Shown: positions 24,767 through 59,860 of the stretch, one piece after another
Position numbering within the stretch: position 1 is the stretch's first letter
Layout of the letters: every line of letters starts with the position of its first letter
From: Sinotaia quadrata
Lineage: Eukaryota > Mollusca > Gastropoda > Architaenioglossa > Viviparidae
Direction of reading: 5' to 3'
Length of the DNA: 64,000 nt
Assembly: GCA_028829895.1 (NCBI GenBank)
Contig: CM054179.1
Location: forward strand, 38,439,117-38,503,116
Program-made: the position numbers and the translations under genes
Notes under the pieces: generated by a model
The model's input: only the letters and a program-made list of their open reading frames with translations
Told to the model about the DNA's origin: nothing
Databases searched by the model: none

Positions 24767-25108
24767 TTAAGTACATGTACACATATGGCAGTATTGTACA
24801 TGCATATATATGATAATATTGTCCTGGTCAGTAGATGCAATCCATGTGTTAAGTACATGCATATGTATAACAATATTGTCCTGGTCAGTAGATGCAATCC
24901 GTGTGTTAAGTATATACATATGTATGACAATATTGTCCTGGTGAGTAGATGCAATCCGTGGGTTAAGTACGTACATATGTATGACAATATTGTCCTGGTG
25001 AGTAGATGCAATCCGTGTGTTAAGTACGTACATATGTATGACAATATTGTCCTGGTGAGTAGATGCAATCCGTGTGTTAAGTACGTACATATGTATGACA
25101 ATATCTGT
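24767..25108. repeat. 57-bp minisatellite, 6 copies
   Basis: 'acatatgtatgacaatattg' followed by 'tcctggtgagtagatgcaat' and 'ccgtgtgttaagtacgt'. The period of 19 codons opens false frames of 107-147 codons on both strands. 'CTGGTGAGTAG' in several copies resembles a 5' splice site. Confidence 0.95.
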
Positions 25109-25363
25109 CTTTCTTTTCTAGTTATAGGGATTGGCATGGTTGTGCTTTCGATGATATCTGAAACTAATGAGAATAATCGATATTTACTTCAGTTTTTGTG
25201 GCTGAATGAACATTTTATTCTTTCTTAAAATAAATGTATTTGTCTGTCTGTTTTTGGTCCATGTATCTATATTTAGTATTGATAAGGTTCGTGAGCGATT
25301 TTGTATTTTATTTGGTGATCTATTTTAACACTTAACTGCTTATTGTGCATATAAAACCACACA

Positions 25364-31792: not shown

Positions 31793-31957
31793 GATGTTGG
31801 ATAGGGGAACCCAATGTATGCATACAAGATCAATGTGTATCTAGCATGGCACCCAAAAACAACTCACATTTCTGCTGCTGTTCTGGTGACATGTGCAATG
31901 AGAATTTTACAGATGGCTATAATCCTGCTGCTCATACCACAACACCCATTACACCAA
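31793..31957 (+). CDS. BMPR2: BMPR2 exon 3: second half of the extracellular domain
   Basis: Acceptor 'acctttgtttag', donor a|GTGAGT, phase 1 in and out, 165 nt. With the split Gly it starts G-CWIGEPNVC and continues to DQC, the CCC triplet in HFCCCSGDMC and NENFTDG, the signature end of the type II receptor finger domain (human ...FCCCSTDLCNVNFTE). It supplies seven cysteines, completing the ten-cysteine set. NNS and NFT are possible N-glycosylation sites. The Thr/Pro-rich end (TTTPITP) is the stalk before the membrane. If the donor is not used, the frame runs two codons on to a TGA at 31963. Confidence 0.96.
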
Positions 31958-32470
31958 GTGAGTGATATTTATAACTTGTGGTCCATTATATCAAGTAGGT
32001 GACATTTATAACTCGTCCAATACATCAAGTAAGTGACATTTATAACTTGTAGTCCAATACACCAAGTAAGTGACATTTATAACTTGTAGTCCAATACACC
32101 AAGTAAGTGACATTTATAACTTGTAGTCCAATACACCAAGTAAGTGACATTTATAACTTGTAGTCCAATACACCAAGTAAGTGACATTTATAACTTGTAG
32201 TCCAATACACCAAGTAAGTGACATTTATAACTTGTAGTCCAATACACCAAGTAAGTGACATTTATAACTTGTAGTCCAATACACCAAGTAAGTGACATTT
32301 ATAACTTGTAGTCCATTACACCAAGTGAGTGATATTTACAAGTCAAGGCCCAGTATGATATTTATAACTCGTATTGTCATAACTCAATAGACTGAATGAA
32401 ATTTATAACTCATGGTCCAAAACACCAAGTGCCTAATATTTATCACTCCTATCAACTTGTGTTGCTTTGA
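31951..32470. repeat. 37-bp minisatellite built from the exon 3/intron boundary
   Basis: The unit 'acaccaagtaagtgacattt' followed by 'ataacttgtagtccaat' begins with the last seven bases of exon 3 and its donor. Donor-like sites: the true one at 31958 (GTGAGT), 31995 (GTAGGT), eight GTAAGT at 32029, 32066, 32103, 32140, 32177, 32214, 32251 and 32288, and GTGAGT again at 32325. Decayed copies reach about 32470. The middle copies are nearly identical, pointing to recent expansion. Confidence 0.97.
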
Positions 32471-32613
32471 AATGTTGAGTAATTTTAAAGATTATTGATA
32501 TATAGAGTTCTGGCAAACATTTTCTTTGTAACTGTAATTATTTGTAATCTTCTTTCATTGTTTGCTGATTTAGTGTTCTTGACAATTTTTTTCTGGTATT
32601 TTTTTTTCTGCAG

Positions 32614-32849
32614 GTCATCCACTCCAAGATAATAGCTACAAAACCAAAACCATCATCATATCTCTTTTGTCCGTTTTTTCAGTCGCTTTTTTTGTTATCA
32701 TTGCTTACATTGGTTTTCGCATGTGTATTCAACCCAAACAGCCATCAGTAGAATCAATCCTTACTACAGAGATTCCTGCATTGCCAGCAGAATTTGACAT
32801 GGATGACCTAAAGTTGTGCCACATAATCAGCAAGGGCCGCTACTCTGAG
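32614..32849 (+). CDS. BMPR2: BMPR2 exon 4: transmembrane helix, juxtamembrane and kinase start
   Basis: Acceptor 'tttttttctgcag', donor GAG|GTTAGT, phase 1 in, phase 0 out, 236 nt. After SHPLQDNSYKTK comes a hydrophobic helix of about 22 residues (IIISLLSVFSVAFFVIIAYI), then basic/polar RMCIQPKQ. The kinase begins with DDLKLCHIISKGRYSE, the glycine-rich loop. In this loop human BMPR2 has G-R-G-R-Y-G; here it is S-K-G-R-Y-S, so only the middle Gly remains. There is no GS box, as expected for a type II receptor. The exon equals human exons 4 and 5 together, with no intron between. Confidence 0.95.
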
Positions 32850-37432: not shown

Positions 37433-37602
37433 ATCAGTTCAAACCAGTTTTGGCTCACAGAGACATCAATACACGCAATATTTTGGTTCGTTCAGACTTG
37501 AACTGTGTTATCACAGACCTGGGGTTTGCTGTAGCAACTATGGGGTCCAAACTTATTAAGAAAGGACACCCAGAAATTGCTGAACAGACATCACTGACTG
37601 AC
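37433..37602 (+). CDS. BMPR2: BMPR2 exon 6: catalytic and activation loops
   Basis: Acceptor 'tttgcatggacag', donor GAC|GTGAGT, phase 1 in, phase 0 out, 170 nt. With the split Asp it reads D-QFKPVLAHRDINTRNILV (human DHYKPAISHRDLNSRNVLV). HRD and the Asn five residues later are intact, so the catalytic base and Mg-binding Asn are present. The metal-binding motif is DLG (VITDLGFAV) where human BMPR2 has DFG; DLG is usual in type I TGF-beta family receptors. It ends in the activation segment IAEQTSLTD. Confidence 0.96.
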
Positions 37603-57446: not shown

Positions 57447-58075
57447 TCGTGTAAAAACGTGCATTTTAATCGAAAAATGGAGATGTTTTTAAGGATGAGT
57501 CAGAAATATAAAAGCTATGTTCGAAAATAATCACTTTAAAGTTCAGACAATTATAATTTACTACCTTGAGTATAAATTATTTACTTCTACATATATAATA
57601 ATATTTTAAAATACTTGAAATTTGCGTTACTAATTTGAGAAGATAACAAAGAGCAAGATACATAGCCTTGACATTGAATACTAAACGTTCTATTATTACT
57701 CTCGAACCAAGTAAAACTCTCAATTTTTGCATGTTTTTAGTTTAGTTTTACAATGAGATTCATTTACCTAACTATATATGTAATCGAGTTCATAAATATA
57801 AATATCGCAAACTCGTTGTTGGGCGAATAAATTGAGTTTTAGTGTATGCAAAAGAAATATACTTAAACGGACAGTCCTCACTCTACGTTGTTGTAGATTA
57901 CGTTATACTAAACGTGTACCAAAAAAAAAAAAAACGTTTGAAAATAACTCCATTAAAATAAAATATAGTAAACTGAAACACGGACAAGTGTGAGATTTGG
58001 TAGGTTAATGAATAGTAATATTTTGAGGCAGTTATACGGTCGCTGAGGGGGGAAACGAAAACAAAAAACAGGACG

Positions 58076-59860
58076 ATGAATAGAAAACACGTTAGAAGCG
58101 ATAGGCCTGCTGTCGCAAATAGTCAAAAAAAATCAAGGAAAAGCATCAATCTAGGCATCAAATTGGACGTTTTAAGGCGTTTTGATGCGGGTGAAAGGGC
58201 AGTTGATATCGCCAGAGAGCTTAACCTTCCGCCTACAACAGTAAGAACAATTCGTTTTAATGGTGAAAAAATTCGCGAATGTGCTCAAAGTGTGGCTCCA
58301 CAAGCGGCCACCAAAATAACTCGTACAAGAGGTGGAATTATGTTTACCATGGAAAGACTTTTAAATGCTTGGATACAAGACCAGAACAATCACAGTGTGC
58401 CTATTAGTATGATGGTCATTCAGGAAAAAGCTAAAAGTTTGTATGAAGATTTAAAGAAAGATTATGGCGAAAATTCACTCAGGGAAACGTTTGGTGCTAG
58501 CCGTGGCTGGTTTGAACGATTTAAGAGGCGCAGCAGTTTGCACCATTTTAAAGTTGCAGATGAAGCTGCAGCTTGCATGAATGTTGACACAGAAACTGAC
58601 AGAAATTATGCTGCTGTCATAAAAGAGATTATTGAAGATGGTGGCTACACACCTCAACAGGTTTTTCTTGGGGAAAAAACTGGCCTGTACTGGAAACGTT
58701 TGCCAGCAAAAACGTTTATTTTTACAGAGATTATTGCACCGGGATTTAAAGCAGACAAAGATCGCTTGACACTTCTACTCTGTGCAAATGCTTCAGGGGA
58801 TTTTAAACTCAAACCATTACTTGTTTACCACACGGAAACTCCAAGGGCTTTAAGAGGGTATTCAAAACAACACCTCCCTGTTGTTTGGCAGTCAGACAAA
58901 AAGACTAGGGTGACATCAGAAATTTTTCAAGAATGGTTTCATTTGCATTTTTGCCCATCTGTGAAGGAGTATTGTGTCAGAAACAATCTGGCACACAAAG
59001 CAATACTCATCATGGACAGTGCCCCAGGCCATCCAGTCAATCTTGAAGATTTATCTGAGCATGTTCAAGTAGTTTTTCTTCCACCTAATGCTACTTCTTA
59101 TTTGCAGGACAAGGATCAAGGCATTGTGCCCTTGTTTAAGGCTTATTATTTACGTCACATTTTCTCTCAGCTCCTTGCAGAAACTGGTGATGAAAATAAA
59201 CCATCAATAAGGGAGTTTTGGCATGGCTATAACATCATGAAAGCCATTGACAATATTGGAGAATCCTGGCAGCAAGTTACAAGGTCAAATATGAATAGTG
59301 TGTGGCAGAACATATGGCCTGAGTATGTTACTTACTTTCAAAGCTTTGGGGGAACAGTGCCAGAAATTCAACGTAACATAGTTGGACTGGCAAAAGAAAT
59401 TGGATTCAATGATGTAGAGGAATTGGATGTATTGGAGTTGCTTGAATCCCATGAAGAAAACTTGTCAGATGAAGATGTGATGCTGCTGGAACAACAAGCA
59501 GAAGAAGAGGCTTATGACACAGCACTACCCCCTCGAATATTAACTTCTAAAAGGTTGTCAGAGGCTTTTCATCATTTGGAAGTAGCAATGTCCATCTTCA
59601 GAGAGGATGATCCAAACCGAGAACGTAGCTCTACAGTTAATAAAGCAATAACAAACAGTATTAACTGCTACAAGGAATTGTACCAGCAAAAGAAAAAGAA
59701 AGATGCACATTTGTCCTTTGAGCGTTTTTATAGATCTACAGTGAAGACTGAAAGCTCAAAGAAAAGTTCATCAAAGGTCCATCAATTTTCAGTGGCTACA
59801 GTTTCATTTTCAGAGTCAGAATATGAAGAGAGAGATAATTCAGTCTCTTTGTCTGAATAA
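58076..59860 (+). CDS. Tigger/pogo-type transposase, TIGD1-like, intact
   Basis: 594 codons, no interruption, about the length of human TIGD1. Residues 19-70 form a CENP-B/psq-type helix-turn-helix (IKLDVLRRFDAGERAVDIAR). Residues 88-165 are the second CENP-B-type DNA-binding domain (GWFERFKRRSSLHHFKV). Residues 195-415 are the DDE_1 nuclease (YWKRLPAKTF, DRLTLLLCANASGDFKLKPL, LIMDSAPGHP, QDKDQGI). By alignment to Tigger (DETxxYWK) the first catalytic Asp is Glu200; Asp314 and Asp347 are kept. The tail STVNKAITNSINCYKELYQQ is also typical of the family. The start ATG has A at -3. I found no clear terminal inverted repeats. It may be a recent, defective copy or a domesticated host gene. Confidence 0.95.
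   Translation: MNRKHVRSDRPAVANSQKKSRKSINLGIKLDVLRRFDAGERAVDIARELNLPPTTVRTIRFNGEKIRECAQSVAPQAATKITRTRGGIMFTMERLLNAWIQDQNNHSVPISMMVIQEKAKSLYEDLKKDYGENSLRETFGASRGWFERFKRRSSLHHFKVADEAAACMNVDTETDRNYAAVIKEIIEDGGYTPQQVFLGEKTGLYWKRLPAKTFIFTEIIAPGFKADKDRLTLLLCANASGDFKLKPLLVYHTETPRALRGYSKQHLPVVWQSDKKTRVTSEIFQEWFHLHFCPSVKEYCVRNNLAHKAILIMDSAPGHPVNLEDLSEHVQVVFLPPNATSYLQDKDQGIVPLFKAYYLRHIFSQLLAETGDENKPSIREFWHGYNIMKAIDNIGESWQQVTRSNMNSVWQNIWPEYVTYFQSFGGTVPEIQRNIVGLAKEIGFNDVEELDVLELLESHEENLSDEDVMLLEQQAEEEAYDTALPPRILTSKRLSEAFHHLEVAMSIFREDDPNRERSSTVNKAITNSINCYKELYQQKKKKDAHLSFERFYRSTVKTESSKKSSSKVHQFSVATVSFSESEYEERDNSVSLSE

Follow-up and report, generated by a model that had tools for sequence, protein, structure and literature searches.

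In the 64-kb stretch of Sinotaia quadrata DNA analysed here (hereafter the window), the splice donor that ends exon 3 of BMPR2 lies in the first unit of a 37-bp minisatellite, and ten donor copies follow it into intron 3. Why does this gene carry one of its donors eleven times in a row, and do the copies serve the transcript or are they a by-product of the growth of the repeat?

The exon 3 donor of BMPR2

Exons 2-10 were placed by their AG/GT borders and by comparison with relatives (exon 6 starting at 37433), and they join into a single open frame of 1169 amino acids plus stop. The product follows the order of BMPR2, with an ectodomain, a membrane segment (recognised by eye), a serine/threonine kinase and a long C-terminal tail; in Pfam, one of the two kinase pieces exceeds the cut-off and the exon 3 piece matches Activin_recp weakly, under the cut-off. 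A search with the tail exon found 47 proteins among 7989 candidates scored, those named including the BMPR2 of Haliotis asinina and Octopus bimaculoides, and its closest named match was in Littorina saxatilis (45% identity). That of an exon 2-5 query was in Batillaria attramentaria (74% identity over 75% of the query), and both species belong to the Caenogastropoda. The exon 2-10 frame, the domain order and the homologues named BMPR2 thus bear out the identity given to the gene in the initial annotation. Splicing from the GTGAGT at 31958 across the 656-nt intron 3 joins exon 3 to exon 4 in the in-frame reading TPITPSHPLQDNSYKTKTIIISL, and since this is the only one of the 11 donors to keep the frame into exon 4 without a stop, its designation as the true donor also stands. 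The features referred to below are as follows.

31793..31957, + strand: BMPR2 exon 3 (165 nt), encoding the last part of the ectodomain, its last 12 bases also belonging to repeat copy 1 (AG/GT borders, open joint, weak Activin_recp match)
31946..32349, + strand: 37-bp minisatellite of 11 copies, each with a GTRRGT motif (TRF, copy comparison)
31958..31963, + strand: true donor GTGAGT (joins exon 4 in frame)
31963..31965, + strand: TGA in frame, reached whenever a transcript continues beyond the true donor (frame reading)
31995..32000, + strand: donor copy GTAGGT, the weakest (donor scoring)
32029..32034, + strand: donor copy GTAAGT (donor scoring)
32066..32293, + strand: seven identical GTAAGT donor copies, starting at 32066, 32103, 32140, 32177, 32214, 32251 and 32288 (scoring, copy comparison)
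32325..32330, + strand: last donor copy, GTGAGT (scoring, copy comparison)
32350..32447, + strand: older degenerate repeat copies without GTRRGT (alignment against shuffles)
32614..32849, + strand: BMPR2 exon 4, encoding the membrane segment and the first part of the kinase region (exon placement, frame)

Anatomy of the 37-bp array

Read copy by copy, the array at 31946-32349 (+) consists of 11 head-to-tail copies, the second of which is 34 bp long; TRF calls it at 31946-32338 with period 37, 10.7 copies, 94% matches and a score of 674. Copy 1 contains the last 12 bases of exon 3 (31946-31957), so that the overlap of exon end and minisatellite claimed in the initial annotation is real, but extends over 12 exon bases and not seven. 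A GTRRGT follows CAA in 11 of 11 copies, the donor hexamers advancing in steps of 37, 34 and then 37 bases to the end, each preceded by ACCAA (ATCAA in copies 2 and 3). Re-reading therefore reproduces exactly the earlier list of donors (GTGAGT at 31958, GTAGGT, eight GTAAGT and one GTGAGT), together with their 34-37-base spacing and shared exon-end context. The motif CAAGTRAGT occurs ten times on the + strand of the 64-kb window, each time inside the array, and never on the - strand, where base composition predicts 0.58 occurrences per strand; its clustering in the array is not due to chance.

The copies differ in an ordered way. Copies 4-10, seven in a row, are identical, the GTAAGTGACATTTA form is present in copies 3-10, and copies 1 and 11 have their first 26 bases in common; variation among copies 1-11 touches two donor positions. 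Beyond copy 11, degenerate copies extend the array to about 32447: the segment 32350-32450 aligns to the unit with a score of 86, which none of 1000 shuffles reached (maximum 49), while no unit signal was found in 32451-32600, where 421 of 1000 shuffles scored as high. No GTRRGT is left in the degenerate copies at 32350-32447. Judged by this order, the array appears to have old edges and a recently expanded middle. Apart from its own degenerate tail, the unit has no match elsewhere in the 64-kb window, and the window gave no Rfam matches at gathering thresholds.

Strength of the donor copies

The initial annotation held that the decoys are closer to the U1 consensus than the true donor. By letter count this is so for eight of the ten copies, as GTAAGT matches 8 of 9 consensus letters and the true site 7 of 9, but by the other two measures the copies are equal or lower. 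Using a donor PWM (scored against the AT-rich background of the window) and a U1 5' end sequence, we obtained PWM scores of 8.90 for GTAAGT, 7.22 for GTAGGT and 9.28 for the true site and the last copy, and U1 duplex energies of -6.4, -6.1 and -6.5, respectively. Nine of the ten copies are thus about equal to the true donor in predicted strength, one is weaker and none is clearly stronger; as near equals of the true site, they lend little weight to the claim that the copies are better. The exon 3 donor is itself ordinary among the eight placed BMPR2 donors, the remaining seven of which span PWM scores of 2.07 to 10.17 and U1 pairing of -4.9 to -10.3. GT sites with a PWM score of at least 8.90 number 35 of 4160 on the + strand of the window (ten of these 35 falling in the array) and 23 of 3684 on the - strand.

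Predicted outcome of using a copy

Splicing from any of the ten copies would leave the frame reading ...TPITPSE and then the TGA at 31963-31965, a stop that lies ahead of the membrane segment of exon 4. Because every copy leads to the same Ser-Glu-stop, longer transcripts would give no variable proteins, and the length-variable transcripts earlier proposed as a possible outcome find no support as a source of diversity: all lengths would encode one identical truncated protein. Nonsense-mediated decay is the expected fate of transcripts with exon junctions downstream of a stop, and since further exon junctions follow this one, it is to be expected for copy-spliced mRNA. Any such mRNA that survived would give rise to a secreted ectodomain, provided that exon 1 supplies a signal peptide.

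These features invite the reading that the copies compete with the true donor as a working splice switch, setting the share of unproductive or soluble-ectodomain BMPR2, possibly by way of their number. The near-equal strength of nine of the ten copies and the single stop that all ten reach ahead of the membrane segment are consistent with it, as is human IFI6 (see below), which shows repeat-unit donors to be usable (PMC4526556). We nevertheless consider such a switch unlikely, because the degenerate copies lack the donor motif, an overlap of array and exon end is expected by chance in this window (see below), and a truncated BMPR2 ectodomain, sought in a protein collection of other species, yielded two candidates, neither at E <= 0.001. 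Among the literature matches listed, titles and abstract openings mention no soluble BMPR2 made through splicing. More doubtful still is a length-variable splicing dial, in which each 37-bp copy adds a donor of similar strength leading to the same stop; if true, the copy number of an individual would set the unproductive or soluble-ectodomain share of BMPR2 with the protein sequence unchanged.

Minisatellite background of the window

The window (1-64000) carries a high minisatellite load: 86 TRF rows with a period of at least 10 merge into 53 arrays that cover 17.7% of its 64 kb. One of the 17 placed exon boundaries lies inside an array, versus 3.0 expected, and one of the eight donors, for which random rotation predicts 1.4; the rotations placed one or more of the eight donors in an array with a probability of 0.81, and a total of one or none was obtained in 18% of them. 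Exon bases within arrays amount to 12 of 3510, all of them at the end of exon 3. Given this coverage, and about three of 17 boundaries expected versus the one seen, the overlap with exon 3 needs no special cause, the background control being this one 64-kb window.

Donor-like sites in arrays are not confined to the 37-bp repeat, as seven of the 53 arrays, counting the 37-bp array, contain one or more sites no worse than CAA/GTAAGT, three of them on the + strand. A 57-bp minisatellite in intron 2, at 24771-25109 (+), carries CTG/GTGAGTAG at 24941, 24998 and 25055 and CTG/GTCAGTAG at 24827 and 24884; its three CTG/GTGAGT sites have a U1 pairing of -10.8, better than that of the copies in the 37-bp array. 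Like the latter, it is tandemly repeated and bears donor-like motifs on the BMPR2 sense strand, but it touches no exon, whereas the 37-bp array overlaps exon 3. Elsewhere in the window, 58019-59857 (+) holds an uninterrupted 613-codon frame with DDE_1, HTH_Tnp_Tc5 and CENP-B_N domains, which we take to be a pogo/Tigger-like transposase.

The end of exon 3 in other gastropods

The residues at the exon end read TTTPITP in the window, TTTPFVP in Littorina, TTTAFLP in the relative P0001 and TTTPYVP in Batillaria. The alignment comprised the window and four gastropods out of eight relatives fetched, and the final proline is invariant in all five rows; Batillaria, compared separately, reads TTTPYVPS at this point, and the relatives left out (P0014, P0016, P0022 and P0029) diverge more in the stalk as judged by eye. 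The stalk encoded by the exon 3 end is poorly conserved, and two relatives are 2-3 residues longer at the joint. P0001 and P0048 have PSE where exons 3 and 4 join (31950-31965 in the window), the place where the window splices after P-S and the start of its intron reads PSE-stop. The exon 3 donor may have shifted among caenogastropods.

Since the codons of the exon end align with those of other gastropods, this end is most likely old coding sequence from which the repeat was copied. The opposite order, in which the repeat first arose in the intron and then took over the exon end, so that the exon 3 donor would be repeat-derived, would sit well with an overlap of just 12 bases and with a stalk that is poorly conserved and variable in length. 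We judge it very improbable, however, given that the last codons align with relatives up to the invariant proline and that the unit is found nowhere else in the window. With an exon end shared with other gastropods and a unit unmatched in the window outside its degenerate tail, the view of the initial annotation that the donor was multiplied in place is sustained.

RNA structure and U1 binding

The UAAGUGACAUUUA in 31946-32349 is self-complementary when G-U pairs are counted, so array units can pair across their own donors in RNA, and pairing between units is indeed predicted in the fold. A fold that hides the decoys was considered and rejected: the array is barely more stable than its shuffles (z -1.68, 5 of 100 reaching its stability), and the copies are no more hidden than the true donor, whose unpaired value of 0.004 compares with 0.003-0.013 in the copies. 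In 32054-32312 each unit also contains a 24-nt GT...AG stretch with TATAAC ahead of the AG, that is, a donor and acceptor-like pair. An intron of 24 nt is below spliceable length, and a micro-intron in each unit was rejected as too short for splicing.

The copies might alternatively recruit U1, as had been suggested, and thereby guard against early polyadenylation or reinforce the definition of exon 3. Ten U1-matching sites do stand within about 370 bases, but the 656 nt of intron 3 contain neither AATAAA nor ATTAAA (0 of each), on which ground the shielding of poly(A) signals there was rejected. Moreover, the copies pair with U1 at moderate strength (-6.1 to -6.5), and the stronger donor array sits in intron 2, far from exons. 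With the motif also missing from the degenerate copies, we found no positive support for a U1-recruiting platform and hold this role to be highly improbable. An assembly origin of the number of identical copies, as seven consecutive identical 37-bp copies in a single assembly might suggest, seems hardly credible: copies 1, 2, 3 and 11 and the degenerate tail vary, in an order like that of natural arrays, and the multiplication of the donor does not depend on the exact copy number.

Probable passive multiplication of a native donor

The anatomy of the array, the order of its copies, their reading-frame outcome and the background rate of arrays in the window are probably best explained by a native donor that was passively multiplied as the minisatellite grew, the functional mRNA being made from the first copy. 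As to the mutational origin, the use of the first donor and the fate of the other transcripts, we infer the following course. The minisatellite would have started on the native boundary between exon 3 and intron 3 of a caenogastropod-like BMPR2 gene, and slippage or unequal exchange would have copied a 37-bp piece, made up of 12 coding bases, the donor and the start of the intron, head to tail into the intron, a recent round of expansion giving rise to the seven identical copies (which the assembly may in part have made identical). Every copy would carry a donor because the seed contained one; when a minisatellite forms on a donor, donor copies arise automatically. The first donor, as the source of the sole in-frame mRNA, must then carry essentially all receptor production, and the other ten would be tolerated cryptic sites, any use of which would run into the Ser-Glu-stop and end in nonsense-mediated decay or a secreted ectodomain, no matter which of the ten was used.

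Nothing in the sequence points to selection for the decoys: donors do not persist beyond the homogenised part of the array, as the degenerate copies have no GTRRGT, and this loss of the motif appears to be as expected without selection. Since nine of the ten decoys have about the predicted strength of the true donor, some rule in favour of the first copy is needed for them to be tolerated. The locus may be regarded as a natural experiment in splice-site choice, in which one true donor stands beside ten copies in the same context and a functional receptor comes from the first donor alone. Should splicing be accurate, the choice must rest on position or on the exon context; should it be inaccurate, receptor dose would follow directly from the copy number of the repeat.

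Comparison with IFI6 and other competing donors

To our knowledge, donor-bearing minisatellites at exon ends are known from one human gene, and a second donor-supplying minisatellite was not found among the titles and abstract openings listed from an open-licence library. The array described here suggests that in a molluscan genome rich in repeats such exon-end minisatellites can arise at background rate. Competing or cryptic sites close to a true donor are a familiar feature of genes, and the BMPR2 copies resemble these in lying a few dozen bases from each other with similar strengths; what sets the BMPR2 copies apart is that repeat growth has produced ten of them, almost identical and almost evenly spaced.

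The human gene is IFI6 (6-16, G1P3), in which the repeat unit is 12 bp long and the array starts near the end of exon 2. Its minisatellite is reportedly the subject of Turri, Cuin and Porter 1995, Nucleic Acids Res 23:1854. Two downstream repeat units of IFI6 act as splice donors and give rise to three mRNA species (PMC4526556). Both genes thus have a minisatellite that offers several splice donors to the transcript of its own gene, and because downstream units serve as donors in IFI6, the silence of the BMPR2 copies is not guaranteed. In both, the array spans the exon end and the true donor, copy 1 in BMPR2 comprising 12 coding bases and the donor at 31958. The two differ in gene and phylum and in the consequence of adding units: the 12-bp IFI6 unit keeps the frame in extra units, whereas the 37-bp unit of BMPR2 breaks it, and because the stop lies two codons past the true junction, the longer BMPR2 forms would all encode one truncated protein. 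By its sequence, the BMPR2 array appears to be a donor-supplying minisatellite of the IFI6 type in another phylum, its copies being putative donors.
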